Positions 1 through 64,000 of a stretch of DNA of 64,000 nt are shown here, one piece after another. The stretch comes from Loxodes magnus. Its lineage: Eukaryota > Ciliophora > Karyorelictea > Loxodida > Loxodidae. Below the pieces are notes generated by a model, which saw only the letters and a list, made by a program, of their open reading frames with translations, made no database searches and had not been told where the DNA came from. Made by a program: the position numbers and the translations under genes. Numbering within the stretch: the stretch's first letter is position 1; each line of letters begins with the position of its first letter. The stretch lies in the NCBI GenBank assembly GCA_946699065.1, contig CAMPDV010000947.1, positions 1-64,000 on the forward strand. The letters run 5' to 3'.

Positions 1-3000
1 GAATCACTGGATATAGCCACAGATCATACACAACTAGTGTGACCACTCATGGTCTTACAGGTACCTGTCTTGACGTCCCATAGTCTCACCGTATAATCAT
101 AACTTCCCGATACGATGAACTCTGAATCACTGGATATAGCCACATATCATACAACACTAGTGTGACCACTTATGGTCTTACAGGTACCTGTCTTGACGTC
201 CCATAGTCTCACCGTATAATCATAACTTCCCGATACGATGAACTCTGAATCACTGGATATAGCCACAGATTATACAACACTAGTGTGACCACTTATGGTC
301 TTACAGGTACCTGTCTTGACGTCCCATAGTCTCACCGTATAATCATAACTTCCCGATACGATGAACTCTGAATCACTGGATATAGCCACAGCATATACAA
401 CACTAGTGTGACCACTCATGGTCTTACAGGTACCTGTCTTGACGTCCCATAGTCTCACCGTATAATCATAACTTCCCGATACGATGAACTCTGAATCACT
501 GGATATAGCCACATATCATACAGAACTAGTGTGACCATCATGGTCTTACAGGTACCTGTCTTGACGTCCCATAGTCTCACCGTATAATCATAACTTCCCG
601 ATACGATGAACTCTGAATCACTGGATATAGCCACATATCATACAGAACTAGTGTGACCACTCATGGTCTTACAGGTACCTGTCTTGACGTCCCATAGTCT
701 CACCGTATAATCATAACTTCCCGATACGATGAACTCTGAATCACTGGATATAGCCACAGATCATACACAACTAGTGTGACCACTCATGGTCTTACAGGTA
801 CCTGTCTTGACGTCCCATAGTCTCACCGTATAATCATAACTTCCCGATACGATGAACTCTGAATCACTGGATATAGCCACATATCATACAGAACTAGTGT
901 GACCATCATGGTCTTACAGGTACCTGTCTTGACGTACCATAGTCTCACCGTCTAATCATAACTTCCCGATACGATGAACTCTGAATCACTGGATATAGCC
1001 ACAGCAGATACAACACTAGTGTGACCACTCATGGTCTTACAGGTACCTGTCTTGACGTCCCATAGTCTCACCGTATAATCATAACTTCCCGATACGATGA
1101 ACTTTGAATCACTGGATATAGCCACGGCATATACTTAACTAGTGTGACCACTCATGGTCTTACAGGTACCTGTCTTGACGTCCCATAGTCTCACCGTATA
1201 ATCTGCACTTCCCGATACGATGAACTCTGAATCACTGGATATAGCCACAGCAGATACCTAATTTGTGTGACCACTCATGGTCTTACAGGTACCTGTCTTG
1301 ACGTCCCATAGTCTCACCGTATAATCATAACTTCCCGATACGATGAACTCTGAATCACTGGATATAGCCACATATCATACAGAACTAGTGTGACCACTCA
1401 TGGTCTTACAGGTACCTGTCTTGACGTCCCATAGTCTCACCGTATAATCATAACTTCCCGATACGATGAACTCTGAATCACTGGATATAGCCACAGATCA
1501 TACAGAACTAGTGTGACCACTCATGGTCTTACAGGTACCTGTCTTGACGTCCCATAGTCTCACCGTATAATCATAACTTCCCGATACGATGAACTCTGAA
1601 TCACTGGATATAGCCACAGCAGATACACAACTAGTGTGACCACTCATGGTCTTACAGGTACCTGTCTTGACGTCCCATAGTCTCACCGTATAATCATAAC
1701 TTCCCGATACGATGAACTCTAAATCACTGGATATAGCCACAGCATATACATAATGTGTGTGACCACTTATGGTCTTACAGGTACCTGTCTTGACGTCCCA
1801 TAGTCTCACCGTCTTATCTGCACTTCCCGATACGATGAACTCTAAATCACTGGATATAGCCACAGATCATACACAACTAGTGTGACCACTCATGGTCTTA
1901 CAGGTACCTGTCTTGACGTCCCATAGTCTCACCGTATAATCATAACTTCCCGATACGATGAACTCTGAATCACTGGATATAGCCACATATCATACAGAAC
2001 TAGTGTGACCATCATGGTCTTACAGGTACCTGTCTTGACGTCCCATAGTCTCACCGTCTTATCTGCACTTCCCGATACGATGAACTCTAAATCACTGGAT
2101 ATAGCCACAGATCATACACAACTAGTGTGACCACTCATGGTCTTACAGGTACCTGTCTTGACGTCCCATAGTCTCACCGTATAATCATAACTTCCCGATA
2201 CGATGAACTCTGAATCACTGGATATAGCCACATATCATACAGAACTAGTGTGACCATCATGGTCTTACAGGTACCTGTCTTGACGTCCCATAGTCTCACC
2301 GTCTTATCTGCACTTCCCGATACGATGAACTCTAAATCACTGGATATAGCCACAGATCATACACAACTAGTGTGACCATCATGGTCTTACAGGTACCTGT
2401 CTTGACGTACCATAGTCTCACCGTATAATCATAACTTCCCGATACGATGAACTCTGAATCACTGGATATAGCCACAGCAGATACAACACTAGTGTGACCA
2501 CTCATGGTCTTACAGGTACCTGTCTTGACGTCCCATAGTCTCACCGTATAATCATAACTTTCCGATACGATGAACTTTGAATCACTGGATATAGCCACGG
2601 CATATACTTAACTAGTGTGACCACTCATGGTCTTACAGGTACCTGTCTTGACGTCCCATAGTCTCACCGTATAATCTGCACTTCCCGATACGATGAACTC
2701 TGAATCACTGGATATAGCCACAGCAGATACACAACTAGTGTGGACCACTCATGGTCTTACAGGTACCTGTCTTGACGTCCCATAGTCTCACCGTATAATC
2801 ATAACTTCCCGATACGATGAACTCTGAATCACTGGATATAGCCACATATCATACAGAACTAGTGTGACCACTCATGGTCTTACAGGTACCTGTCTTGACG
2901 TCCCATAGTCTCACCGTATAATCATAACTTCCCGATACGATGAACTCTGAATCACTGGATATAGCCACAGATCATACAGAACTAGTGTGACCACTCATGG

Positions 3001-23949: not shown

Positions 23950-26900
23950 CCATAGTCTCACCGTATAATCATAACTTCCCGATACGATGAACTCTGAATC
24001 ACTGGATATAGCCACAGATCATACACAACTAGTGTGACCACTCATGGTCTTACAGGTACCTGTCTTGACGTCCCATAGTCTCACCGTCTAATCATAACTT
24101 CCCGATACGATGAACTCTGAATCACTGGATATAGCCACAGCAGATACAACACTAGTGTGACCACTCATGGTCTTACAGGTACCTGTCTTGACGTCCCATA
24201 GTCTCACCGTATAATCATAACTTCCCGATACGATGAACTCTGAATCACTGGATATAGCCACAGCAGATACAACACTAGTGTGACCACTCATGGTCTTACA
24301 GGTACCTGTCTTGACGTCCCATAGTCTCACCGTATAATCATAACTTCCCGATACGATGAACTCTGAATCACTGGATATAGCCACAGATCATACACAACTA
24401 GTGTGACCACTCATGGTCTTACAGGTACCTGTCTTGACGTCCCATAGTCTCACCGTATAATCATAACTTCCCGATACGATGAACTCTGAATCACTGGATA
24501 TAGCCACAGCAGATACCTAATTTGTGTGACCACTCATGGTCTTACAGGTACCTGTCTTGACGTCCCATAGTCTCACCGTCTAATCTGCACTTCCCGATAC
24601 GATGAACTCTGAATCACTGGATATAGCCACAGCAGATACACAACTAGTGTGACCACTCATGGTCTTACAGGTACCTGTCTTGACGTCCCATAGTCTCACC
24701 GTATAATCATAACTTCCCGATACGATGAACTCTGAATCACTGGATATAGCCACAGCATATACAACACTAGTGTGACCACTCATGGTCTTACAGGTACCTG
24801 TCTTGACGTCCCATAGTCTCACCGTATAATCATAACTTCCCGATACGATGAACTCTGAATCACTGGATATAGCCACATATCATACATGACTAGTGTGACC
24901 ACTCATGGTCTTACAGGTACCTGTCTTGACGTCCCATAGTCTCACCGTATAATCATAACTTCCCGATACGATGAACTCTGAATCACTGGATATAGCCACA
25001 GCAGATACAACACTAGTGTGACCACTCATGGTCTTACAGGTACCTGTCTTGACGTCCCATAGTCTCACCGTATAATCATAACTTCCCGATACGATGAACT
25101 CTGAATCACTGGATATAGCCACAGCATATACTTAACTAGTGTGACCACTCATGGTCTTACAGGTACCTGTCTTGACGTCCCATAGTCTCACCGTATAATC
25201 ATAACTTCCCGATACGATGAACTCTGAATCACTGGATATAGCCACAGCAGATACCTAATTTGTGTGACCACTCATGGTCTTACAGGTACCTGTCTTGACG
25301 TCCCATAGTCTCACCGTATAATCATAACTTCCCGATACGATGAACTCTGAATCACTGGATATAGCCACGGCATATACTTAACTAGTGTGACCACTCATGG
25401 TCTTACAGGTACCTGTCTTGACGTCCCATAGTCTCACCGTATAATCATAACTTCCCGATACGATGAACTCTGAATCACTGGATATAGCCACAGCAGATAC
25501 ACAACTAGTGTGACCACTCATGGTCTTACAGGTACCTGTCTTGACGTCCCATAGTCTCACCGTATAATCATAACTTCCCGATACGATGAACTCTGAATCA
25601 CTGGATATAGCCACAGCATATACAACACTAGTGTGACCACTCATGGTCTTACAGGTACCTGTCTTGACGTCCCATAGTCTCACCGTCTAATCTGCACTTC
25701 CCGATACGATGAACTCTGAATCACTGGATATAGCCACAGCAGATACACAACTAGTGTGACCACTCATGGTCTTACAGGTACCTGTCTTGACGTCCCATAG
25801 TCTCACCGTATAATCATAACTTCCCGATACGATGAACTCTGAATCACTGGATATAGCCACAGCAGATACACAACTAGTGTGACCACTCATGGTCTTACAG
25901 GTACCTGTCTTGACGTCCCATAGTCTCACCGTATAATCATAACTTTCCGATACGATGAACTCTGAATCACTGGATATAGCCACAGCATATACATAATGTG
26001 TGTGACCACTTATGGTCTTACAGGTACCTGTCTTGACGTCCCATAGTCTCACCGTATAATCATAACTTCCCGATACGATGAACTCTGAATCACTGGATAT
26101 AGCCACAGATCATACAGAACTAGTGTGACCACTCATGGTCTTACAGGTACCTGTCTTGACGTCCCATAGTCTCACCGTATAATCATAACTTCCCGATACG
26201 ATGAACTCTGAATCACTGGATATAGCCACAGATCATACACAACTAGTGTGACCACTCATGGTCTTACAGGTACCTGTCTTGACGTCCCATAGTCTCACCG
26301 TATAATCATAACTTCCCGATACGATGAACTCTGAATCACTGGATATAGCCACAGCATATACAACACTAGTGTGACCACTCATGGTCTTACAGGTACCTGT
26401 CTTGACGTCCCATAGTATCACCGTATAATCATAACTTCCCGATACGATGAACTCTGAATCACTGGATATAGCCACAGCAGATACACAACTAGTGTGACCA
26501 CTCATGGTCTTACAGGTACCTGTCTTGACGTCCCATAGTCTCACCGTATAATCATAACTTCCCGATACGATGAACTCTGAATCACTGGATATAGCCACAG
26601 CAGATACACAACTAGTGTGACCACTCATGGTCTTACAGGTACCTGTCTTGACGTCCCATAGTCTCACCGTATAATCATAACTTTCCGATACGATGAACTC
26701 TGAATCACTGGATATAGCCACAGCATATACATAATGTGTGTGACCACTTATGGTCTTACAGGTACCTGTCTTGACGTCCCATAGTCTCACCGTATAATCA
26801 TAACTTCCCGATACGATGAACTCTGAATCACTGGATATAGCCACAGCAGATACACAACTAGTGTGACCACTCATGGTCTTACAGGTACCTGTCTTGACGT

Positions 26901-29900
26901 CCCATAGTCTCACCGTATAATCATAACTTTCCGATACGATGAACTCTGAATCACTGGATATAGCCACAGATCATACAGAACTAGTGTGACCACTCATGGT
27001 CTTACAGGTACCTGTCTTGACGTCCCATAGTCTCACCGTATAATCATAACTTCCCGATACGATGAACTCTGAATCACTGGATATAGCCACATATCATACA
27101 TGACTAGTGTGACCACTCATGGTCTTACAGGTACCTGTCTTGACGTCCCATAGTCTCACCGTCTAATCTGCACTTCCCGATACGATGAACTCTGAATCAC
27201 TGGATATAGCCACAGATCATACACAACTAGTGTGACCACTCATGGTCTTACAGGTACCTGTCTTGACGTCCCATAGTCTCACCGTATAATCATAACTTCC
27301 CGATACGATGAACTCTGAATCACTGGATATAGCCACAGCAGATACAACACTAGTGTGACCACTCATGGTCTTACAGGTACCTGTCTTGACGTCCCATAGT
27401 CTCACCGTATAATCATAACTTCCCGATACGATGAACTCTGAATCACTGGATATAGCCACAGATCATACACAACTAGTGTGACCACTCATGGTCTTACAGG
27501 TACCTGTCTTGACGTCCCATAGTCTCACCGTATAATCATAACTTCCCGATACGATGAACTCTGAATCACTGGATATAGCGACATATCATACAGAACTAGT
27601 GTGACCACTCATGGTCTTACAGGTACCTGTCTTGACGTCCCATAGTCTCACCGTATAATCATAACTTCCCGATACGATGAACTCTAAATCACTGGATATA
27701 GCCACGGCATATACTTAACTAGTGTGACCACTCATGGTCTTACAGGTACCTGTCTTGACGTCCCATAGTCTCACCGTATAATCATAACTTCCCGATACGA
27801 TGAACTCTAAATCACTGGATATAGCCACGGCATATACTTAACTAGTGTGACCACTCATGGTCTTACAGGTACCTGTCTTGACGTCCCATAGTCTCACCGT
27901 ATAATCATAACTTCCCGATACGATGAACTCTGAATCACTGGATATAGCCACAGCATATACTTAACTAGTGTGACCACTCATGGTCTTACAGGTACCTGTC
28001 TTGACGTCCCATAGTCTCACCGTATAATCATAACTTCCCGATACGATGAACTCTAAATCACTGGATATAGCCACGGCATATACAACACTAGTGTGACCAC
28101 TCATGGTCTTACAGGTACCTGTCTTGACGTCCCATAGTCTCACCGTCTAATCATAACTTCCCGATACGATGAACTCTGAATCACTGGATATAGCCACAGA
28201 TCATACAGAACTAGTGTGACCACTCATGGTCTTACAGGTACCTGTCTTGACGTCCCATAGTCTCACCGTATAATCATAACTTCCCGATACGATGAACTCT
28301 GAATCACTGGATATAGCCACATATCATACATGACTAGTGTGACCACTCATGGTCTTACAGGTACCTGTCTTGACGTCCCATAGTCTCACCGTATAATCAT
28401 AACTTCCCGATACGATGAACTCTGAATCACTGGATATAGCCACATATCATACATGACTAGTGTGACCACTCATGGTCTTACAGGTACCTGTCTTGACGTC
28501 CCATAGTCTCACCGTATAATCATAACTTCCCGATACGATGAACTCTAAATCACTGGATATAGCCACAGATCATACACAACTAGTGTGACCACTCATGGTC
28601 TTACAGGTACCTGTCTTGACGTCCCATAGTCTCACCGTATAATCATAACTTCCCGATACGATGAACTCTAAATCACTGGATATAGCCACGGCATATACTT
28701 AACTAGTGTGACCACTCATGGTCTTACAGGTACCTGTCTTGACGTCCCATAGTCTCACCGTATAATCATAACTTCCCGATACGATGAACTCTGAATCACT
28801 GGATATAGCCACAGCATATACTTAACTAGTGTGACCACTCATGGTCTTACAGGTACCTGTCTTGACGTCCCATAGTCTCACCGTATAATCATAACTTCCC
28901 GATACGATGAACTCTGAATCACTGGATATAGCCACAGCAGATACACAACTAGTGTGACCACTCATGGTCTTACAGGTACCTGTCTTGACGTCCCATAGTC
29001 TCACCGTATAATCATAACTTTCCGATACGATGAACTCTGAATCACTGGATATAGCCACAGCATATACATAATGTGTGTGACCACTTATGGTCTTACAGGT
29101 ACCTGTCTTGACGTCCCATAGTCTCACCGTATAATCATAACTTCCCGATACGATGAACTCTGAATCACTGGATATAGCCACAGCAGATACACAACTAGTG
29201 TGACCACTCATGGTCTTACAGGTACCTGTCTTGACGTCCCATAGTCTCACCGTATAATCATAACTTTCCGATACGATGAACTCTGAATCACTGGATATAG
29301 CCACAGATCATACAGAACTAGTGTGACCACTCATGGTCTTACAGGTACCTGTCTTGACGTCCCATAGTCTCACCGTATAATCATAACTTCCCGATACGAT
29401 GAACTCTGAATCACTGGATATAGCCACATATCATACATGACTAGTGTGACCACTCATGGTCTTACAGGTACCTGTCTTGACGTCCCATAGTCTCACCGTA
29501 TAATCATAACTTCCCGATACGATGAACTCTGAATCACTGGATATAGCCACAGATCATACACAACTAGTGTGACCACTCATGGTCTTACAGGTACCTGTCT
29601 TGACGTCCCATAGTCTCACCGTATAATCATAACTTCCCGATACGATGAACTCTAAATCACTGGATATAGCCACGGCATATACTTAACTAGTGTGACCACT
29701 CATGGTCTTACAGGTACCTGTCTTGACGTCCCATAGTCTCACCGTATAATCATAACTTCCCGATACGATGAACTCTGAATCACTGGATATAGCCACAGCA
29801 TATACTTAACTAGTGTGACCACTCATGGTCTTATAGGTACCTGTCTTGACGTCCCATAGTCTCACCGTATAATCATAACTTCCCGATACGATGAACTCTG

Positions 29901-32900
29901 AATCACTGGATATAGCCACATATCATACATGACTAGTGTGACCACTCATGGTCTTACAGGTACCTGTCTTGACGTCCCATAGTCTCACCGTATAATCATA
30001 ACTTCCCGATACGATGAACTCTGAATCACTGGATATAGCCACAGCATATACAACACTAGTGTGACCACTCATGGTCTTACAGGTACCTGTCTTGACGTCC
30101 CATAGTCTCACCGTATAATCATAACTTCCCGATACGATGAACTCTGAATCACTGGATATAGCCACATATCATACATGACTAGTGTGACCACTCATGGTCT
30201 TACAGGTACCTGTCTTGACGTCCCATAGTCTCACCGTATAATCATAACTTCCCGATACGATGAACTCTGAATCACTGGATATAGCCACAGCATATACAAC
30301 ACTAGTGTGACCACTCATGGTCTTACAGGTACCTGTCTTGACGTCCCATAGTCTCACCGTATAATCATAACTTCCCGATACGATGAACTCTGAATCACTG
30401 GATATAGCCACAGCAGATACACAACTAGTGTGACCACTCATGGTCTTACAGGTACCTGTCTTGACGTCCCATAGTCTCACCGTATAATCATAACTTCCCG
30501 ATACGATGAACTCTGAATCACTGGATATAGCCACAGCAGATACACAACTAGTGTGACCACTCATGGTCTTACAGGTACCTGTCTTGACGTCCCATAGTCT
30601 CACCGTATAATCATAACTTTCCGATACGATGAACTCTGAATCACTGGATATAGCCACAGCATAAACTTAACTAGTGTGACCACTCATGGTCTTACAGGTA
30701 CCTGTCTTGACGTCCCATAGTCTCACCGTATAATCATAACTTCACGATACGATGAACTCTGAATCACTGGATATAGCCACAGATCATACAGAACTAGTGT
30801 GACCACTCATGGTCTTACAGGTACCTGTCTTGACGTCCCATAGTCTCACCGTCTAATCTGCACTTCCCGATACGATGAACTCTAAATCACTGGATATAGC
30901 CACAGATCATACACAACTAGTGTGACCACTCATGGTCTTACAGGTACCTGTCTTGACGTCCCATAGTCTCACCGTATAATCATAACTTCCCGATACGATG
31001 AACTCTGAATCACTGGATATAGCCACAGATCATACACAACTAGTGTGACCACTCATGGTCTTACAGGTACCTGTCTTGACGTCCCATAGTCTCACCGTAT
31101 AATCATAACTTCCCGATACGATGAACTCTGAATCACTGGATATAGCCACAGATCATACACAACTAGTGTGACCACTCATGGTCTTACAGGTACCTGTCTT
31201 GACGTCCCATAGTCTCACCGTATAATCATAACTTCCCGATACGATGAACTCTGAATCACTGGATATAGCCACAGCAGATACACAACTAGTGTGACCACTC
31301 ATGGTCTTACAGGTACCTGTCTTGACGTCCCATAGTCTCACCGTATAATCATAACTTCCCGATACGATGAACTCTGAATCACTGGATATAGCCACAGCAG
31401 ATACACAACTAGTGTGACCACTCATGGTCTTACAGGTACCTGTCTTGACGTCCCATAGTCTCACCGTATAATCATAACTTTCCGATACGATGAACTCTGA
31501 ATCACTGGATATAGCCACAGCATATACATAATGTGTGTGACCACTTATGGTCTTACAGGTACCTGTCTTGACGTCCCATAGTCTCACCGTATAATCATAA
31601 CTTCCCGATACGATGAACTCTGAATCACTGGATATAGCCACAGCAGATACACAACTAGTGTGACCACTCATGGTCTTACAGGTACCTGTCTTGACGTCCC
31701 ATAGTCTCACCGTATAATCATAACTTTCCGATACGATGAACTCTGAATCACTGGATATAGCCACAGCAGATACACAACTAGTGTGACCACTCATGGTCTT
31801 ACAGGTACCTGTCTTGACGTCCCATAGTCTCACCGTATAATCATAACTTCCCGATACGATGAACTCTGAATCACTGGATATAGCCACATATCATACATGA
31901 CTAGTGTGACCACTCATGGTCTTACAGGTACCTGTCTTGACGTCCCATAGTCTCACCGTATAATCATAACTTCCCGATACGATGAACTCTGAATCACTGG
32001 ATATAGCCACAGCATATACAACACTAGTGTGACCACTCATGGTCTTACAGGTACCTGTCTTGACGTCCCATAGTCTCACCGTCTAATCTGCACTTCCCGA
32101 TACGATGAACTCTGAATCACTGGATATAGCCACAGCAGATACACAACTAGTGTGACCACTCATGGTCTTACAGGTACCTGTCTTGACGTCCCATAGTCTC
32201 ACCGTATAATCATAACTTCCCGATACGATGAACTCTGAATCACTGGATATAGCCACAGCAGATACACAACTAGTGTGACCACTCATGGTCTTACAGGTAC
32301 CTGTCTTGACGTCCCATAGTCTCACCGTATAATCATAACTTTCCGATACGATGAACTCTGAATCACTGGATATAGCCACAGCATAAACTTAACTAGTGTG
32401 ACCACTCATGGTCTTACAGGTACCTGTCTTGACGTCCCATAGTCTCACCGTATAATCATAACTTCACGATACGATGAACTCTGAATCACTGGATATAGCC
32501 ACAGATCATACAGAACTAGTGTGACCACTCATGGTCTTACAGGTACCTGTCTTGACGTCCCATAGTCTCACCGTCTAATCTGCACTTCCCGATACGATGA
32601 ACTCTAAATCACTGGATATAGCCACAGATCATACACAACTAGTGTGACCACTCATGGTCTTACAGGTACCTGTCTTGACGTCCCATAGTCTCACCGTATA
32701 ATCATAACTTCCCGATACGATGAACTCTGAATCACTGGATATAGCCACAGATCATACACAACTAGTGTGACCACTCATGGTCTTACAGGTACCTGTCTTG
32801 ACGTCCCATAGTCTCACCGTATAATCATAACTTCCCGATACGATGAACTCTGAATCACTGGATATAGCCACAGATCATACACAACTAGTGTGACCACTCA

Positions 32901-35900
32901 TGGTCTTACAGGTACCTGTCTTGACGTCCCATAGTCTCACCGTATAATCATAACTTCCCGATACGATGAACTCTGAATCACTGGATATAGCCACATATCA
33001 TACACAACTAGTGTGACCACTCATGGTCTTACAGGTACCTGTCTTGACGTCCCATAGTCTCACCGTATAATCATAACTTCCCGATACGATGAACTCTGAA
33101 TCACTGGATATAGCCACAGCAGATACACAACTAGTGTGACCACTCATGGTCTTACAGGTACCTGTCTTGACGTCCCATAGTCTCACCGTATAATCATAAC
33201 TTTCCGATACGATGAACTCTGAATCACTGGATATAGCCACAGCATATACATAATGTGTGTGACCACTTATGGTCTTACAGGTACCTGTCTTGACGTCCCA
33301 TAGTCTCACCGTATAATCATAACTTCCCGATACGATGAACTCTGAATCACTGGATATAGCCACAGCAGATACACAACTAGTGTGACCACTCATGGTCTTA
33401 CAGGTACCTGTCTTGACGTCCCATAGTCTCACCGTATAATCATAACTTCCCGATACGATGAACTCTGAATCACTGGATATAGCCACAGCAGATACACAAC
33501 TAGTGTGACCACTCATGGTCTTACAGGTACCTGTCTTGACGTCCCATAGTCTCACCGTATAATCATAACTTCCCGATACGATGAACTCTGAATCACTGGA
33601 TATAGCCACAGATCATACAGAACTAGTGTGACCACTCATGGTCTTACAGGTACCTGTCTTGACGTCCCATAGTCTCACCGTCTAATCTGCACTTCCCGAT
33701 ACGATGAACTCTGAATCACTGGATATAGCCACAGCAGATACACAACTAGTGTGACCACTCATGGTCTTACAGGTACCTGTCTTGACGTCCCATAGTCTCA
33801 CCGTATAATCATAACTTCCCGATACGATGAACTCTGAATCACTGGATATAGCCACATATCATACACAACTAGTGTGACCACTCATGGTCTTACAGGTACC
33901 TGTCTTGACGTCCCATAGTCTCACCGTATAATCATAACTTCCCGATACGATGAACTCTGAATCACTGGATATAGCCACAGCAGATACACAACTAGTGTGA
34001 CCACTCATGGTCTTACAGGTACCTGTCTTGACGTCCCATAGTCTCACCGTCTAATCTGCACTTCCCGATACGATGAACTCTAAATCACAGGATATAGCCA
34101 CAGATCATACACAACTAGTGTGACCACTCATGGTCTTACAGGTACCTGTCTTGACGTCCCATAGTCTCACCGTATAATCATAACTTCCCGATACGATGAA
34201 CTCTGAATCACTGGATATAGCCACAGCATATACATAATGTGTGTGACCACTCATGGTCTTACAGGTACCTGTCTTGACGTCCCATAGTCTCACCGTATAA
34301 TCATAACTTCCCGATACGATGAACTCTGAATCACTGGATATAGCCACAGCAGATACACAACTAGTGTGACCACTCATGGTCTTACAGGTACCTGTCTTGA
34401 CGTCCCATAGTCTCACCGTCTAATCTGCACTTCCCGATACGATGAACTCTAAATCACAGGATATAGCCACAGATCATACACAACTAGTGTGACCACTCAT
34501 GGTCTTACAGGTACCTGTCTTGACGTCCCATAGTCTCACCGTATAATCATAACTTCCCGATACGATGAACTCTGAATCACTGGATATAGCCACAGATCAT
34601 ACACAACTAGTGTGACCACTCATGGTCTTACAGGTACCTGTCTTGACGTCCCATAGTCTCACCGTATAATCATAACTTCCCGATACGATGAACTCTGAAT
34701 CACTGGATATAGCCACAGATCATACACAACTAGTGTGACCACTCATGGTCTTACAGGTACCTGTCTTGACGTCCCATAGTCTCACCGTATAATCATAACT
34801 TCCCGATACGATGAACTCTGAATCACTGGATATAGCCACATATCATACATGACTAGTGTGACCACTCATGGTCTTACAGGTACCTGTCTTGACGTCCCAT
34901 AGTCTCACCGTATAATCATAACTTCCCGATACGATGAACTCTGAATCACTGGATATAGCCACAGATCATACACAACTAGTGTGACCACTCATGGTCTTAC
35001 AGGTACCTGTCTTGACGTCCCATAGTCTCACCGTATAATCATAACTTCCCGATACGATGAACTCTGAATCACTGGATATAGCCACAGATCATACACAACT
35101 AGTGTGACCACTCATGGTCTTACAGGTACCTGTCTTGACGTCCCATAGTCTCACCGTATAATCATAACTTCCCGATACGATGAACTCTGAATCACTGGAT
35201 ATAGCCACAGATCATACAGAACTAGTGTGACCACTCATGGTCTTACAGGTACCTGTCTTGACGTCCCATAGTCTCACCGTATAATCATAACTTCCCGATA
35301 CGATGAACTCTGAATCACTGGATATTGCCACATATCATACATGACTAGTGTGACCACTCATGGTCTTACAGGTACCTGTCTTGACGTCCCATAGTCTCAC
35401 CGTCTTATCATAACTTCCCGATACGATGAACTCTGAATCACTGGATATAGCCACAGATCATACAGAACTAGTGTGACCACTCATGGTCTTACAGGTACCT
35501 GTCTTGACGTCCCATAGTCTCACCGTATAATCATAACTTCCCGATACGATGAACTCTGAATCACTGGATATAGCCACATATCATACATGACTAGTGTGAC
35601 CACTCATGGTCTTACAGGTACCTGTCTTGACGTCCCATAGTCTCACCGTATAATCATAACTTCCCGATACGATGAACTCTGAATCACTGGATATAGCCAC
35701 AGCATATACAACACTAGTGTGACCACTCATGGTCTTACAGGTACCTGTCTTGACGTCCCATAGTCTCACCGTCTAATCTGCACTTCCCGATACGATGAAC
35801 TCTGAATCACTGGATATAGCCACAGCATATACAACACTAGTGTGACCACTCATGGTCTTACAGGTACCTGTCTTGACGTCCCATAGTCTCACCGTCTAAT

Positions 35901-38900
35901 CTGCACTTCCCGATACGATGAACTCTGAATCACTGGATATAGCCACAGCATATACAACACTAGTGTGACCACTCATGGTCTTACAGGTACCTGTCTTGAC
36001 GTCCCATAGTCTCACCGTCTAATCTGCACTTCCCGATACGATGAACTCTGAATCACTGGATATAGCCACAGCAGATACCTAATTTGTGTGACCACTCATG
36101 GTCTTACAGGTACCTGTCTTGACGTCCCATAGTCTCACCGTATAATCATAACTTCCCGATACGATGAACTCTGAATCACTGGATATGGCCACAGCAGATA
36201 CACAACTAGTGTGACCACTTATGGTCTTACAGGTACCTGTCTTGACGTCCCATAGTCTCACCGTATAATCATAACTTCCCGATACGATGAACTCTGAATC
36301 ACTGGATATTGCCACATATCATACATGACTAGTGTGACCACTCATGGTCTTACAGGTACCTGTCTTGACGTCCCATAGTCTCACCGTCTTATCATAACTT
36401 CCCGATACGATGAACTCTGAATCACTGGATATAGCCACAGATCATACAGAACTAGTGTGACCACTCATGGTCTTACAGGTACCTGTCTTGACGTCCCATA
36501 GTCTCACCGTATAATCATAACTTCCCGATACGATGAACTCTGAATCACTGGATATAGCCACATATCATACATGACTAGTGTGACCACTCATGGTCTTACA
36601 GGTACCTGTCTTGACGTCCCATAGTCTCACCGTATAATCATAACTTCCCGATACGATGAACTCTGAATCACTGGATATAGCCACAGCATATACAACACTA
36701 GTGTGACCACTCATGGTCTTACAGGTACCTGTCTTGACGTCCCATAGTCTCACCGTCTAATCTGCACTTCCCGATACGATGAACTCTGAATCACTGGATA
36801 TAGCCACAGCATATACAACACTAGTGTGACCACTCATGGTCTTACAGGTACCTGTCTTGACGTCCCATAGTCTCACCGTCTAATCTGCACTTCCCGATAC
36901 GATGAACTCTGAATCACTGGATATAGCCACAGCAGATACCTAATTTGTGTGACCACTCATGGTCTTACAGGTACCTGTCTTGACGTCCCATAGTCTCACC
37001 GTATAATCATAACTTCCCGATACGATGAACTCTGAATCACTGGATATGGCCACAGCAGATACACAACTAGTGTGACCACTTATGGTCTTACAGGTACCTG
37101 TCTTGACGTCCCATAGTCTCACCGTATAATCATAACTTCCCGATACGATGAACTCTGAATCACTGGATATAGCCACAGCAGATACCTAATTTGTGTGACC
37201 ACTTATGGTCTTACAGGTACCTGTCTTGACGTCCCATAGTCTCACCGTATAATCATAACTTCCCGATACGATGAACTCTGAATCACTGGATATAGCCACA
37301 GATCATACACAACTAGTGTGACCACTCATGGTCTTACAGGTACCTGTCTTGACGTCCCATAGTCTCACCGTATAATCATAACTTCCCGATACGATGAACT
37401 CTGAATCACTGGATATAGCCACATATCATACATGACTAGTGTGACCACTCATGGTCTTACAGGTACCTGTCTTGACGTCCCATAGTCTCACCGTATTATC
37501 TCCACTTCCCGATACGATGAACTCTGAATCACTGGATATAGCCACAGATCATACACAACTAGTGTGACCACTTATGGTCTTACAGGTACCTGTCTTGACG
37601 TCCCATAGTCTCACCGTCTTATCTGCACTTCCCGATACGATGAACTCTAAATCACTGGATATAGCCACAGATGATACTCAACTAGTGTGACCACTCATGG
37701 TCTTACAGGTACCTGTCTTGACGTCCCATAGTCTCACCGTATAATCATAACTTCCCGATACGATGAACTCTGAATCACTGGATATAGCCACAGCATATAC
37801 AACACTAGTGTGACCACTCATGGTCTTACAGGTACCTGTCTTGACGTCCCATAGTCTCACCGTATAATCATAACTTCCCGATACGATGAACTCTGAATCA
37901 CTGGATATAGCCACATATCATACATGACTAGTGTGACCACTTATGGTCTTACAGGTACCTGTCTTGACGTCCCATAGTCTCACCGTATAATCATAACTTC
38001 CCGATACGATGAACTCTGAATCACTGGATATGGCCACAGCAGATACACAACTAGTGTGACCACTTATGGTCTTACAGGTACCTGTCTTGACGTCCCATAG
38101 TCTCACCGTATAATCATAACTTCCCGATACGATGAACTCTGAATCACTGGATTTAGCCACAGCAGATACCTAATTTGTGTGACCACTTATGGTCTTACAG
38201 GTACCTGTCTTGACGTCCCATAGTCTCACCGTATAATCATAACTTCCCGATACGATGAACTCTGAATCACTGGATATAGCCACAGATCATACACAACTAG
38301 TGTGACCACTCATGGTCTTACAGGTACCTGTCTTGACGTCCCATAGTCTCACCGTATAATCATAACTTCCCGATACGATGAACTCTGAATCACTGGATAT
38401 AGCCACATATCATACATGACTAGTGTGACCACTCATGGTCTTACAGGTACCTGTCTTGACGTCCCATAGTCTCACCGTATTATCTCCACTTCCCGATACG
38501 ATGAACTCTGAATCACTGGATATAGCCACAGATCATACACAACTAGTGTGACCACTTATGGTCTTACAGGTACCTGTCTTGACGTCCCATAGTCTCACCG
38601 TCTTATCTGCACTTCCCGATACGATGAACTCTAAATCACTGGATATAGCCACAGATGATACTCAACTAGTGTGACCACTCATGGTCTTACAGGTACCTGT
38701 CTTGACGTCCCATAGTCTCACCGTATAATCATAACTTCCCGATACGATGAACTCTGAATCACTGGATATAGCCACAGATCATACACAACTAGTGTGACCA
38801 CTCATGGTCTTACAGGTACCTGTCTTGACGTCCCATAGTCTCACCGTATAATCATAACTTCCCGATACGATGAACTCTGAATCACTGGATATAGCCACAG

Positions 38901-41900
38901 CATATACAACACTAGTGTGACCACTCATGGTCTTATAGGTACCTGTCTTGACGTCCCATAGTCTCACCGTATAATCATAACTTCCCGATACGATGAACTC
39001 TGAATCACTGGATATAGCCACAGATCATACACAACTAGTGTGACCACTCATGGTCTTACAGGTACCTGTCTTGACGTCCCATAGTCTCACCGTATAATCA
39101 TAACTTCCCGATACGATGAACTCTGAATCACTGGATATAGCCACATATCATACATGACTAGTGTGACCACTTATGGTCTTACAGGTACCTGTCTTGACGT
39201 CCCATAGTCTCACCGTATAATCATAACTTCCCGATACGATGAACTCTGAATCACTGGATATAGCCACAGATCATACATGACTAGTGTGACCACTCATGGT
39301 CTTACAGGTACCTGTCTTGACGTCCCATAGTCTCACCGTATAATCATAACTTCCCGATACGATGAACTCTGAATCACTGGATATAGCCACAGCAGATACT
39401 TAACTAGTGTGACCACTCATGGTCTTACAGGTACCTGTCTTGACGTCCCATAGTCTCACCGTCTAATCTGCACTTCCCGATACGATGAACTCTAAATCAC
39501 TGGATATAGCCACAGATCATACAGAACTAGTGTGACCACTCATGGTCTTACAGGTACCTGTCTTGACGTCCCATAGTCTCACCGTATAATCATAACTTCC
39601 CGATACGATGAACTCTGAATCACTGGATATTGCCACATATCATACATGACTAGTGTGACCACTCATGGTCTTACAGGTACCTGTCTTGACGTCCCATAGT
39701 CTCACCGTATAATCATAATTTCCCGATACGATGAACTCTGAATCACTGGATATAGCCACAGCATATACAACACTAGTGTGACCACTCATGGTCTTACAGG
39801 TACCTGTCTTGACGTCCCATAGTCTCACCGTCTAATCTGCACTTCCCGATACGATGAACTCTGAATCACTGGATATAGCCACAGCATATACTTAACTAGT
39901 GTGACCACTCATGGTCTTACAGGTACCTGTCTTGACGTCCCATAGTCTCACCGTATAATCATAACTTCCCGATACGATGAACTCTGAATCACTGGATATA
40001 GCCACAGCAGATACCTAATTTGTGTGACCACTCATGGTCTTACAGGTACCTGTCTTGACGTCCCATAGTCTCACCGTATAATCATAACTTCCCGATACGA
40101 TGAACTCTGAATCACTGGATATAGCCACATATCATACATGACTAGTGTGACCACTCATGGTCTTACAGGTACCTGTCTTGACGTCCCATAGTCTCACCGT
40201 ATAATCATAACTTCCCGATACGATGAACTCTGAATCACTGGATATAGCCACAGATCATACATAAAATGTGTGACCACTCATGGTCTTACAGGTACCTGTC
40301 TTGACGTCCCATAGTCTCACCGTATAATCATAACTTCCCGATACGATGAACTCTGAATCACTGGATATAGCCACAGATCATACATGACTAGTGTGACCAC
40401 TTATGGTCTTACAGGTACCTGTCTTGACGTCCCATAGTCTCACCGTCTTATCTGCACTTCCCGATACGATGAACTCTAAATCACTGGATATAGCCACAGA
40501 TCATACAGAACTAGTGTGACCACTCATGGTCTTACAGGTACCTGTCTTGACGTCCCATAGTCTCACCGTCTAATCTGCACTTCCCGATACGATGAACTCT
40601 GAATCACTGGATATAGCCACATATCATACATGACTAGTGTGACCACTTATGGTCTTACAGGTACCTGTCTTGACGTCCCATAGTCTCACCGTCTTATCTG
40701 CACTTCCCGATACGATGAACTCTAAATCACTGGATATAGCCACAGATGATACTCAACTAGTGTGACCACTCATGGTCTTACAGGTACCTGTCTTGACGTC
40801 CCATAGTCTCACCGTATAATCATAACTTCCCGATACGATGAACTCTGAATCACTGGATATAGCCACATATCATACATGACTAGTGTGACCACTTATGGTC
40901 TTACAGGTACCTGTCTTGACGTCCCATAGTCTCACCGTCTTATTTGCACTTCCCGATACGATGAACTCTAAATCACTGGATATAGCCACAGATGATACTC
41001 AACTAGTGTGACCACTCATGGTCTTACAGGTACCTGTCTTGACGTCCCATAGTCTCACCGTATAATCATAACTTCCCGATACGATGAACTCTGAATCACT
41101 GGATATAGCCACATATCATACATGACTAGTGTGACCACTCATGGTCTTACAGGTACCTGTCTTGACGTCCCATAGTCTCACCGTATAATCATAACTTCCC
41201 GATACGATGAACTCTGAATCACTGGATATAGCCACAGCATATACAACACTAGTGTGACCACTCATGGTCTTACAGGTACCTGTCTTGACGTCCCATAGTC
41301 TCACCGTATTATCTCCACTTCCCGATACGATGAACTCTGAATCACTGGATATAGCCACATATCATACATGACTAGTGTGACCACTTATGGTCTTACAGGT
41401 ACCTGTCTTGACGTCCCATAGTCTCACCGTATAATCATAACTTCCCGATACGATGAACTCTGAATCACTGGATATGGCCACAGCAGATACCTAATTTGTG
41501 TGACCACTCATGGTCTTACAGGTACCTGTCTTGACGTCCCATAGTCTCACCGTCTTATCTGCACTTCCCGATACGATGAACTCTAAATCACTGGATATAG
41601 CCACAGATCATACTCAACTAGTGTGACCACTCATGGTCTTACAGGTACCTGTCTTGACGTCCCATAGTCTCACCGTATAATCATAACTTCCCGATACGAT
41701 GAACTCTGAATCACTGGATATAGCCACAGATCATACACAACTAGTGTGACCACTCATGGTCTTACAGGTACCTGTCTTGACGTCCCATAGTCTCACCGTC
41801 TTATCTGCACTTCCCGATACGATGAACTCTGAATCACTGGATATAGCCACAGCATATACTTAACTAGTGTGACCACTCATGGTCTTATAGGTACCTGTCT

Positions 41901-44900
41901 TGACGTCCCATAGTCTCACCGTATAATCATAACTTCCCGATACGATGAACTCTGAATCACTGGATATAGCCACAGATCATACACAACTAGTGTGACCACT
42001 CATGGTCTTACAGGTACCTGTCTTGACGTCCCATAGTCTCACCGTATAATCATAACTTCCCGATACGATGAACTCTGAATCACTGGATATAGCCACAGAT
42101 CATACATGACTAGTGTGACCACTTATGGTCTTACAGGTACCTGTCTTGACGTCCCATAGTCTCACCGTCTTATCTGCACTTCCCGATACGATGAACTCTA
42201 AATCACTGGATATAGCCACAGATGATACTCAACTAGTGTGACCACTCATGGTCTTACAGGTACCTGTCTTGACGTCCCATAGTCTCACCGTATAATCATA
42301 ACTTCCCGATACGATGAACTCTGAATCACTGGATATAGCCACAGATCATACATGACTAGTGTGACCACTTATGGTCTTACAGGTACCTGTCTTGACGTCC
42401 CATAGTCTCACCGTCTTATCTGCACTTCCCGATACGATGAACTCTAAATCACTGGATATAGCCACAGATCATACAGAACTAGTGTGACCACTCATGGTCT
42501 TACAGGTACCTGTCTTGACGTCCCATAGTCTCACCGTATAATCATAACTTCCCGATACGATGAACTCTGAATCACTGGATATAGCCACAGATCATACACA
42601 ACTAGTGTGACCACTCATGGTCTTACAGGTACCTGTCTTGACGTCCCATAGTCTCACCGTCTTATCTGCACTTCCCGATACGATGAACTCTAAATCACTG
42701 GATATAGCCACAGATCATACAGAACTAGTGTGACCACTCATGGTCTTACAGGTACCTGTCTTGACGTCCCATAGTCTCACCGTCTAATCATAACTTCCCG
42801 ATACGATGAACTCTGAATCACTGGATATAGCCACATATCATACATGACTAGTGTGACCACTTATGGTCTTACAGGTACCTGTCTTGACGTCCCATAGTCT
42901 CACCGTCTTATCTGCACTTCCCGATACGATGAACTCTAAATCACTGGATATAGCCACAGATCATACAGAACTAGTGTGACCACTCATGGTCTTACAGGTA
43001 CCTGTCTTGACGTCCCATAGTCTCACCGTATAATCATAACTTCCCGATACGATGAACTCTGAATCACTGGATATAGCCACATATCATACATGACTAGTGT
43101 GACCACTTATGGTCTTACAGGTACCTGTCTTGACGTCCCATAGTCTCACCGTATAATCATAACTTCCCGATACGATGAACTCTGAATCACTGGATATAGC
43201 CACAGCAGATACCTAATTTGTGTGACCACTCATGGTCTTACAGGTACCTGTCTTGACGTCCCATAGTCTCACCGTATAATCATAACTTCCCGATACGATG
43301 AACTCTGAATCACTGGATATGGCCACAGCAGATACACAACTAGTGTGACCACTTATGGTCTTACAGGTACCTGTCTTGACGTCCCATAGTCTCACCGTAT
43401 AATCATAACTTCCCGATACGATGAACTCTGAATCACTGATATAGCCACATATCATACATGACTAGTGTGACCACTCATGGTCTTACAGGTACCTGTCTTG
43501 ACGTCCCATAGTCTCACCGTATAATCATAACTTCCCGATACGATGAACTCTGAATCACTGGATATAGCCACAGCATATACTTAACTAGTGTGACCACTCA
43601 TGGTCTTATAGGTACCTGTCTTGACGTCCCATAGTCTCACCGTATAATCATAACTTCCCGATACGATGAACTCTGAATCACTGGATATAGCCACAGATCA
43701 TACACAACTAGTGTGACCACTCATGGTCTTACAGGTACCTGTCTTGACGTCCCATAGTCTCACCGTATAATCATAACTTCCCGATACGATGAACTCTGAA
43801 TCACTGGATATAGCCACAGCATATACTTAACTAGTGTGACCACTCATGGTCTTATAGGTACCTGTCTTGACGTCCCATAGTCTCACCGTATAATCATAAC
43901 TTCCCGATACGATGAACTCTGAATCACTGGATATAGCCACAGATCATACACAACTAGTGTGACCACTCATGGTCTTACAGGTACCTGTCTTGACGTCCCA
44001 TAGTCTCACCGTATAATCATAACTTCCCGATACGATGAACTCGGAATCACTGGATATAGCCACAGATCATACATGACTAGTGTGACCACTTATGGTCTTA
44101 CAGGTACCTGTCTTGACGTCCCATAGTCTCACCGTCTTATCTGCACTTCCCGATACGATGAACTCTAAATCACTGGATATAGCCACAGATCATACAGAAC
44201 TAGTGTGACCACTCATGGTCTTACAGGTACCTGTCTTGACGTCCCATAGTCTCACCGTATAATCATAACTTCCCGATACGATGAACTCTGAATCACTGGA
44301 TATAGCCACAGATCATACTCAACTAGTGTGACCACTCATGGTCTTACAGGTACCTGTCTTGACGTCCCATAGTCTCACCGTCTTATCTGCACTTCCCGAT
44401 ACGATGAACTCTAAATCACTGGATATAGCCACAGATCATACAGAACTAGTGTGACCACTCATGGTCTTACAGGTACCTGTCTTGACGTCCCATAGTCTCA
44501 CCGTATAATCATAACTTCCCGATACGATGAACTCTGAATCACTGGATATAGCCACAGCATATACAACACTAGTGTGACCACTCATGGTCTTACAGGTACC
44601 TGTCTTGACGTCCCATAGTCTCACCGTCTAATCATAACTTCCCGATACGATGAACTCTGAATCACTGGATATAGCCACATATCATACATGACTAGTGTGA
44701 CCACTCATGGTCTTACAGGTACCTGTCTTGACGTCCCATAGTCTCACCGTCTTATCATAACTTCCCGATACGATGAACTCTGAATCACTGGATATAGCCA
44801 CATATCATACATGACTAGTGTGACCACTCATGGTCTTACAGGTACCTGTCTTGACGTCCCATAGTCTCACCGTCTTATCTGCACTTCCCGATACGATGAA

Positions 44901-59900: not shown

Positions 59901-62900
59901 TGAACTCTGAATCACTGGATATAGCCACATATCATACATGACTAGTGTGACCACTCATGGTCTTACAGGTACCTGTCTTGACGTCCCATAGTCTCACCGT
60001 ATAATCATAACTTCCCGATACGATGAACTCTGAATCACTGGATATAGCCACAGCATATACAACACTAGTGTGACCACTCATGGTCTTACAGGTACCTGTC
60101 TTGACGTCCCATAGTCTCACCGTCTAATCTGCACTTCCCGATACGATGAACTCTGAATCACTGGATATAGCCACAGCATATACTTAACTAGTGTGACCAC
60201 TCATGGTCTTACAGGTACCTGTCTTGACGTCCCATAGTCTCACCGTATAATCATAACTTCCCGATACGATGAACTCTGAATCACTGGATATAGCCACAGC
60301 AGATACCTAATTTGTGTGACCACTCATGGTCTTACAGGTACCTGTCTTGACGTCCCATAGTCTCACCGTATAATCATAACTTCCCGATACGATGAACTCT
60401 GAATCACTGGATATGGCCACAGCAGATACACAACTAGTGTGACCACTTATGGTCTTACAGGTACCTGTCTTGACGTCCCATAGTCTCACCGTATAATCAT
60501 AACTTCCCGATACGATGAACTCTGAATCACTGGATATAGCCACAGCAGATACCTAATTTGTGTGACCACTCATGGTCTTACAGGTACCTGTCTTGACGTC
60601 CCATAGTCTCACCGTATAATCATAACTTCCCGATACGATGAACTCTGAATCACTGGATATAGCCACAGATCATACACAACTAGTGTGACCACTCATGGTC
60701 TTACAGGTACCTGTCTTGACGTCCCATAGTCTCACCGTATAATCATAACTTCCCGATACGATGAACTCTGAATCACTGGATATAGCCACATATCATACAT
60801 GACTAGTGTGACCACTCATGGTCTTACAGGTACCTGTCTTGACGTCCCATAGTCTCACCGTATAATCATAACTTCCCGATACGATGAACTCTGAATCACT
60901 GGATATAGCCACAGCATATACAACACTAGTGTGACCACTCATGGTCTTACAGGTACCTGTCTTGACGTCCCATAGTCTCACCGTCTAATCTGCACTTCCC
61001 GATACGATGAACTCTGAATCACTGGATATAGCCACAGCATATACTTAACTAGTGTGACCACTCATGGTCTTACAGGTACCTGTCTTGACGTCCCATAGTC
61101 TCACCGTATAATCATAACTTCCCGATACGATGAACTCTGAATCACTGGATATAGCCACAGCAGATACCTAATTTGTGTGACCACTCATGGTCTTACAGGT
61201 ACCTGTCTTGACGTCCCATAGTCTCACCGTATAATCATAACTTCCCGATACGATGAACTCTGAATCACTGGATATGGCCACAGCAGATACACAACTAGTG
61301 TGACCACTTATGGTCTTACAGGTACCTGTCTTGACGTCCCATAGTCTCACCGTATAATCATAACTTCCCGATACGATGAACTCTGAATCACTGGATATAG
61401 CCACAGCAGATACCTAATTTGTGTGACCACTCATGGTCTTACAGGTACCTGTCTTGACGTCCCATAGTCTCACCGTATAATCATAACTTCCCGATACGAT
61501 GAACTCTGAATCACTGGATATAGCCACAGATCATACACAACTAGTGTGACCACTCATGGTCTTACAGGTACCTGTCTTGACGTCCCATAGTCTCACCGTA
61601 TAATCATAACTTCCCGATACGATGAACTCTGAATCACTGGATATAGCCACATATCATACATGACTAGTGTGACCACTCATGGTCTTACAGGTACCTGTCT
61701 TGACGTCCCATAGTCTCACCGTATTATCTCCACTTCCCGATACGATGAACTCTGAATCACTGGATATAGCCACATATCATACATGACTAGTGTGACCACT
61801 TATGGTCTTACAGGTACCTGTCTTGACGTCCCATAGTCTCACCGTCTTATCTGCACTTCCCGATACGATGAACTCTAAATCACTGGATATAGCCACAGAT
61901 CATACTCAACTAGTGTGACCACTCATGGTCTTACAGGTACCTGTCTTGACGTCCCATAGTCTCACCGTATAATCATAACTTCCCGATACGATGAACTCTG
62001 AATCACTGGATATAGCCACAGCATATACAACACTAGTGTGACCACTCATGGTCTTACAGGTACCTGTCTTGACGTCCCATAGTCTCACCGTATAATCATA
62101 ACTTCCCGATACGATGAACTCTGAATCACTGGATATAGCCACATATCATACACAACTAGTGTGACCACTCATGGTCTTACAGGTACCTGTCTTGACGTCC
62201 CATAGTCTCACCGTATAATCATAACTTCCCGATACGATGAACTCTGAATCACTGGATATTGCCACATATCATACACAACTAGTGTGACCACTCATGGTCT
62301 TACAGGTACCTGTCTTGACGTCCCATAGTCTCACCGTATAATCATAACTTCCCGATACGATGAACTCTGAATCACTGGATATTGCCACATATCATACATG
62401 ACTAGTGTGACCACTCATGGTCTTACAGGTACCTGTCTTGACGTCCCATAGTCTCACCGTCTTATCATAACTTCCCGATACGATGAACTCTGAATCACTG
62501 GATATAGCCACAGATCATACAGAACTAGTGTGACCACTCATGGTCTTACAGGTACCTGTCTTGACGTCCCATAGTCTCACCGTATAATCATAACTTCCCG
62601 ATACGATGAACTCTGAATCACTGGATATAGCCACATATCATACATGACTAGTGTGACCACTCATGGTCTTACAGGTACCTGTCTTGACGTCCCATAGTCT
62701 CACCGTATAATCATAACTTCCCGATACGATGAACTCTGAATCACTGGATATAGCCACAGATCATACACAACTAGTGTGACCACTCATGGTCTTACAGGTA
62801 CCTGTCTTGACGTCCCATAGTCTCACCGTATAATCATTACTTCCCGATACGATGAACTCTGAATCACTGGATATAGCCACAGCATATACTTAACTAGTGT

Positions 62901-64000: not shown

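Follow-up and report, generated by a model that had tools for sequence, protein, structure and literature searches.

We analyzed a 64,000-bp stretch of the Loxodes magnus genome, referred to here as the window, which begins at one end of contig C947. A single tandem array occupies positions 1-63,989 (period 123, 520 copies, 95% matches; TRF), and the feature as a whole (1..64000, minus strand) encodes WD40 units of 123 bp, or 41 residues, in 519 full copies. Beyond the opposite side of the window the contig extends to 162,182 bp with array all along, and cyclic alignment to one unit gave 1,318 full units from end to end. Since both contig ends fall within array, the flanks of C947 lie outside view. 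Under genetic code table 27, the majority unit of the C947 array reads GHTSCVWSVAISSDSEFIVSGSYDYTVRLWDVKTGTCKTMS, in which we number columns from the G of GHT (column 1), one lower than the residue numbers used in the original prediction made from this sequence. GC content is 43-44% in the window array, compared with ~21% in the 10-kb flank of an array on contig C119.

Stop codons and variable columns of the WD40 units

In-frame standard stop codons had been described in more than half of the units and essentially at three columns, and both statements agree with our counts: 385 of the 519 full window units carry at least one TAA, TAG or TGA, and columns 5, 7 and 25 (residues 6, 8 and 26 in the earlier numbering) account for 412 of the 414 such codons. 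Across the 519 units, column 5 holds TAA 64 times, TAG 25 times and TGA 11 times, column 7 holds TGA 264 times and TAA 5 times, column 25 holds TAG 43 times, and column 21 holds TGA twice. Along the whole contig, 1,112 stops affect 1,044 of the 1,318 units. Because the majority codon of 13 columns is a stop or lies one base away from one, confinement to three columns does not reflect simple accessibility. TGA in column 7 has a lower share genome-wide (65,321 of 373,856 motif matches) than in C947 (713 of 1,318 units). Trp at a variable column is always encoded by TGA and never by TGG (785 in the array, 10 in the gene blades described below), with three further TGA codons at column 21, while the conserved Trp of column 30 is TGG wherever Trp is present. 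The one-step neighborhood of TGA (TCA, TTA, AGA, TAA) may explain this exclusive use of TGA at variable columns.

The original prediction had attributed the three columns to a preference of WD40 repeats for Trp and Gln at these sites, an account that we do not retain, as the columns are hypervariable surface positions that accept many residues (eight in column 5). Ranking the 41 columns by residue entropy puts 5, 8, 7, 25, 23 and 4 at the top in the array, and the same six lead in gene blades, in the order 23, 7, 4, 25, 5 and 8. In the accessible part of PMC3419727, the hotspots of the WD40 top face are defined as R1 in the motif (V,L,I) R1 R2 (V,L,I), R1-2 two positions before it, and D-1 before the tetrad Asp, a rule that maps them to columns 7, 5 and 23 of the unit, respectively. 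All three are among the array's top five columns, a placement with a chance probability of 9e-4. Positions 10, 11, 12, 14, 30, 32 and 39 of the fungal het-d/het-e repeats would correspond to columns 3, 4, 5, 7, 23, 25 and 32, respectively. These seven are the positions listed for het-d/het-e in PMC12222747. In the Loxodes array, the residue at columns 3 and 32 hardly varies.

A segment of seven units' length (39829..40689, minus strand), which contains nine TAA, TAG or TGA codons, was translated with table 27 and modeled with AF2 without an alignment. The prediction is a seven-bladed WD40 propeller (pLDDT 90.5, pTM 0.88), with the WD40 profile PF00400 matching in 7 stretches (E = 1.5e-74). Foldseek placed WDR5, the designed propeller 7bif and the repetitive propeller 2ymu among the solved folds nearest to the model.

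With the commonest codon as reference, minor codons at the six variable columns of the array are nonsynonymous in 3,020 cases and synonymous in 0, although the minor codons include four synonymous extra ones. Because the units share descent, these counts are not independent. At conserved columns, rare substitution types were 12 synonymous to 28 nonsynonymous, where 25.7% synonymous is expected under neutrality, and with rare variants so near neutral, selection on the array itself is not demonstrated. Normalized mutual information was 0.50-0.67 within columns 5, 7 and 8 and 0.02-0.14 between these and columns 23 and 25. Some weak linkage of one unit half to the other persisted (mutual information 0.378 bits versus a shuffled mean of 0.099). 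We read this overall pattern as exchange tracts shorter than one unit.

The nuclear genetic code in other genes

Because the array is itself probably satellite DNA, it could not alone have proved a genetic code. Elsewhere in the genome (705,730,643 bases in 7,843 contigs searched), in-frame stops in PRP8 and actin, together with a tRNA gene with a UUA anticodon, support the original prediction that TAA and TAG are read as Gln and TGA as Trp. Housekeeping genes free of internal TAA, TAG and TGA had been named as the observation that would speak against this code; the PRP8 and actin families carry these codons internally.

Within its 1,269 codons, the PRP8 stretch on contig C59 has 54 standard stops in frame, and its PROCN domain match alone contains 5 TGA, 2 TAG and 12 TAA. 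With all three codons masked as X, the 1,269 residues were aligned to PDB PRP8 chains, among them 6zym_A (2,073 bits), which we take to be the human PRP8 protein. Codons were tallied at 42 of the 54 stops, those within the visible alignment rows, where TGA stood opposite Trp at 12 of 12 sites, TAA opposite Gln at 17 of 23, and TAG opposite Gln at 4 of 7, the last being few sites. As a yardstick, in the identical rows TGG stood opposite Trp at 9 of 10 sites and CAA opposite Gln at 4 of 7. The Gln assignment is less clean than that of Trp. As the original prediction argued, TGA has no explanation under the Tetrahymena-type code.

The top-scoring actin copies have 6-7 in-frame TAG codons and 2-4 in-frame TAA codons. 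Actin is represented by dozens of near-equal-scoring genes on few contigs (C266, C437, C524, C707, C711, C1162 and C1812). For tRNAs, one search pattern matched both a gene with the anticodon TTA (UUA), as had been proposed as a check on the code, and a tRNA-Gln gene with TTG. Tandem tRNA-like matches with the anticodon TTA were also observed at C214:232606-237603, spaced mostly 273-279 bp apart. One search pattern for a tRNA-Trp able to read TGA gave 0 matches; a Loxodes tRNA-Trp with a 4-bp stem is stated in the accessible part of PMC13092985.

Table 27 has been given for L. magnus, together with a macronuclear assembly of 706 Mbp that includes 231 Mbp of tandem repeats (PMC11441545), and the karyorelict nuclear code has also been found in Parduzcia sp. 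(PMC4967479), both according to the accessible parts of these papers. Our results in PRP8 and the WD40 columns, with TAA and TAG as Gln and TGA as Trp, match the code published there. The code itself is nothing new, having already been published for this lineage.

Receptor-like genes and their central blades

WD40 blades like those of the array also occur in a family of receptor-like genes, whose putative receptor role we infer from sequence. At C2:2733700-2738400 (L043, L053; minus strand), a gene encodes a protein kinase (PF07714, E = 3.6e-57) followed by a spacer, pentapeptide-like repeats, as assigned by eye, and WD40 blades (six Pfam stretches). A second gene, at C2:231300-236600 (L040, L052), has a Cys-rich start and a Gln-rich stretch, followed by the same spacer and pentapeptide-like part and then seven blades (PF00400, 7 stretches in one seven-blade frame), two of which carry TGA (Trp) at column 7 and one TAG (Gln) at column 25. 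Pfam found no NACHT domain in the two upstream regions, one of which is the protein kinase and the other, the N-terminal region of the second gene, matched no family and is 'RING-like' by eye only. In three of four further genes (L054-L057), a conserved C-terminal tail ends in RYIK/RYIR-TGA, where by eye the similarity stops, and in L040 an intron-like stretch (GTAAGT...TAG) precedes the tail. The same receptor-like gene may use TGA both as Trp internally and as a stop at its end.

A 150-residue query spanning spacer and pentapeptide-like part returned 2,246 first-look candidates in the genome, and all 150 that were scored have E ≤ 1e-49. Among these 150, 29 of the 39 minus-strand matches on C1-C650 lie within 50 kb of base 1, as do 0 of the 31 plus-strand matches on the same contigs (by eye). 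The contig end is known for 9 of 71 plus-strand matches, and all 9 lie within 75 kb of it. The genes were thus seen to cluster near contig ends and to point outward, a pattern broken by the two C2 genes. This clustering may reflect a subtelomeric location, or a common downstream repeat that breaks the assembly. We rejected the idea that the receptor-like genes found at contig ends continue into the WD40 array: of five contig starts read, four showed a seven-blade gene (with a frame change in L056) and then different sequence, repetitive in part, and L058, the fifth, was cut within the WD40 part. In L055 (C27), other AT-rich repeats were observed after the receptor-like gene.

We then compared gene blades with the array. 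Of 67 blades found in 18 gene loci, we kept 39, from 16 loci, that lie 0-6 of 105 nt from the array majority outside the six variable columns; the other 28, which are outer blades, more diverged or changed in frame, were left out of the counts. Some of the genes appear damaged: L056 shifts frame within its blades, and hardly any blades or none could be kept from L059, L061 and L062. At the 105 nt, eight of the 39 kept blades match the array majority exactly, and the outer blades of these genes show as many as 35 nt differences, the limit set in the search. In the six variable columns the 39 blades hold 129 nonsynonymous cells and 1 synonymous cell, and in the remaining columns 51 and 38, respectively. 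As the blades were selected by likeness to the array, this choice partly explains why variation is concentrated at the six columns, but not the 129:1 ratio.

The near-identity of the kept blades to the array indicates recent exchange between central blades and arrays, or a recent common origin. No kept blade is identical to a C947 unit; 13 of the 39 carry a column 4-8 cassette common to C947, 14 carry such a column 23-25 cassette, and 2 carry both. Columns 4, 7, 23 and 25 show more diversity in gene blades than in the array, and columns 5 and 8 show less. TGA, TAA and TAG occur in the gene blades at the WD40 columns where the array has them.

Origin of the array and comparison with known systems

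Across the assembly, a 28-mer of the unit has 363,308 exact copies and a motif in the opposite half of the unit has 373,856 matches, with 0 for the reversed-pattern control in each case. At 123 bp per unit the total is ~45 Mb, or 6.3% of the assembly, a figure that is the assembly's own, since repeat misassembly is named as an issue in the accessible part of PMC11441545. Arrays on C6, C119 and C9 begin abruptly, mid-unit, in AT-rich DNA, and Pfam found no family in their flanks (1.3, 10 and 8.4 kb, respectively; three frames of the array strand). By their copy number and by these three starts, the units form long, high-copy tandem arrays with no bounding gene, as expected of satellite DNA. Fragments of 2-3 units occur in AT-rich DNA, and the array on C4 comes after a kinase-WD40 stretch that changes frame, where introns are possible. 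At C6:1907050-1908450 (L071), other AT-rich repeats directly adjoin the WD40 array.

We also observed a second array family, with 126-bp units (GHADSVLSIAISPDQKWIVSASYDDTIKVWDFQTGSCLRTFT), on C9, C119, C1503 and C6957. Its own motif has only 4,384 exact copies. The variable columns are much the same, with the addition of 41-42, and TGA or TAA occurs there on three of the four contigs. Among 71 units on C9, TGA is found at column 5 in 31 and at column 7 in 24, and TAA at column 25 in 11; on C6957, stops occur in only 4 of 120 units, all at column 41.

The C947 array contains 68 single-base indels, which are absent from the original prediction. In minus-strand coordinates of the contig, 36 of the 68 lie above 130,000, a region that corresponds to window positions 1..32182 (minus strand), and 23 lie below 20,000, whereas the 67,725 bp from 13,509 to 81,234 (~550 units, outside the window) contain none. 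The longest indel-free stretch of the window (23951..43439, minus strand; contig minus-strand 118,743-138,231) covers 19,488 bp with one frame for all units. Rare substitutions (≤3 copies, conserved columns) numbered 0 in the last 24 kb, which fall in the window's indel-rich end region, 1 in the first 24 kb, and 11 and 17 in two middle regions. Indels without substitutions at both contig ends suggest that these ends are unpolished, and most single-base indels are probably assembly noise at the contig ends, although we hold this assignment as doubtful. A deletion at unit base 34 occurs 8 times, 7 of them on the haplotype CAT..TGATAT, which is found in 245 of the 1,318 units (probability ~5e-5), and this suggests that a true frameshift has spread inside the array. 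Since all 64 triplets are sense, an open frame is no evidence of a gene.

We think it likely that the karyorelict code applies and that the array is a satellite derived from WD40 units of sensor genes, rather than one translated gene. In the mechanism we propose, the karyorelict nuclear code, which was shown on other genes of this genome, makes the stops of the array sense codons. Judging from few genes, the receptor-like proteins open with a kinase or other N-terminal module and continue through the spacer and the pentapeptide-like repeats into a seven-bladed propeller, whose central blades, usually two or three of them, are almost identical save for a few ligand-face codons. These codons would diversify in the genes while exchange between units keeps the remainder alike, and with no triplet dedicated as an in-gene stop, the variable codons may take TAA, TAG and TGA as ordinary residues. 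The satellite would then have been amplified from the central WD40 units of the gene family, presumably in the direction from gene to satellite, and would inherit the set of units and reshuffle it by unequal exchange, as the weak half-to-half linkage suggests.

On this evidence the array is probably not one translated gene. A giant gene, encoding one receptor with hundreds to more than 1,300 WD40 blades and its stops read as Gln or Trp, would account for the long indel-free stretch outside the window and for the confident propeller predicted from seven units, and the 36 + 23 indels near contig ends, with few rare substitutions there, favor noise over decay. We nevertheless consider it very unlikely, given ~363,000 copies genome-wide, gene copies that, where their end was read, hold no more than about seven blades, arrays on C6, C119 and C9 that start mid-unit with no recognizable N-terminal domain, and the recurring base-34 deletion, a frameshift that apparently spread along with one haplotype. 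Decay of a pseudogene array under the standard code, with the stops as nonsense mutations, is the reading to which we assign almost no probability. It is compatible with the near-neutral rare variants at conserved columns and with the satellite-like abundance, but PRP8 and actin carry the same in-frame codons, with TGA in PRP8 always at Trp sites, the gene blades have TGA, TAA and TAG at identical WD40 columns, and random nonsense is unlikely to place 412 of 414 stops in three columns. For the genome as a whole, the PRP8 alignment and actin led us to reject a standard code with nonsense decay.

The satellite could also be a working archive, from which gene conversion would carry variable codons out of array units into the expressed sensor genes. 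The 8 of 39 kept blades that equal the array majority at the 105 other nt, and the cassettes shared with C947 (13 of 39 for columns 4-8, 14 of 39 for columns 23-25), are consistent with such donation. However, no blade is identical to a C947 unit and only 2 combine both cassettes, gene blades are the more diverse at columns 4, 7, 23 and 25 and the less diverse at 5 and 8, the 39 blades were chosen for their closeness to the array, and exchange in the opposite direction or common origin fits equally well; an archive is unlikely in our view. A broader form, in which a protist would have a diversifying repertoire of hundreds to thousands of pentapeptide-WD40 sensors, tipped with a kinase or another module, and would renew their ligand-face codons from a 45-Mb archive, with all 64 triplets available at no nonsense cost, likewise strikes us as improbable.

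Under the reading we favor, a satellite derived from sensor-gene units, it is the ~45-Mb satellite of WD40-coding units in a ciliate that looks new, and not the code. In titles and abstract openings, we found no account of satellite DNA made of WD40 units or of a hypervariable ciliate WD40-pentapeptide family, nor one combining Loxodes and WD40, supplementary files and most subscription papers aside. The L. magnus genome report gives 231 Mbp of tandem repeats and does not mention WD40 in its main text, supplement aside (PMC11441545). As far as the literature was searched, the sensor-unit satellite and the receptor-like family therefore seem undescribed, and they appear to be a variant of a known design.

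Propellers of near-identical repeats are also found in the highly-repetitive WD40 proteins (PMC5587647; PDB 2ymu), but these are single proteins, and the accessible part of that paper describes no satellite-scale arrays. Another parallel is with the HNWD genes het-d/het-e of Podospora anserina, where, according to the accessible part of PMC12222747, WD40 units are kept near-identical by concerted evolution save for interaction-surface codons. The Loxodes repeats are near-identical as well, with nonsynonymous variation at top-face sites (129:1 in gene blades). Functional HNWD alleles usually combine 11 conserved repeats with a NACHT domain (PMC12222747, accessible part), whereas the only Loxodes gene whose N-terminus was recognized joins a protein kinase to pentapeptide-like repeats and a single propeller. 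In Loxodes, moreover, the units make up a satellite with hundreds of thousands of copies. It becomes testable whether a diversifying recognition system of such kind exists in ciliates, and whether a stop-free code eases the diversification of hypervariable codons. In principle, a large ciliate family of receptor-like proteins with hypervariable propeller faces would resemble the allorecognition receptors of fungi.
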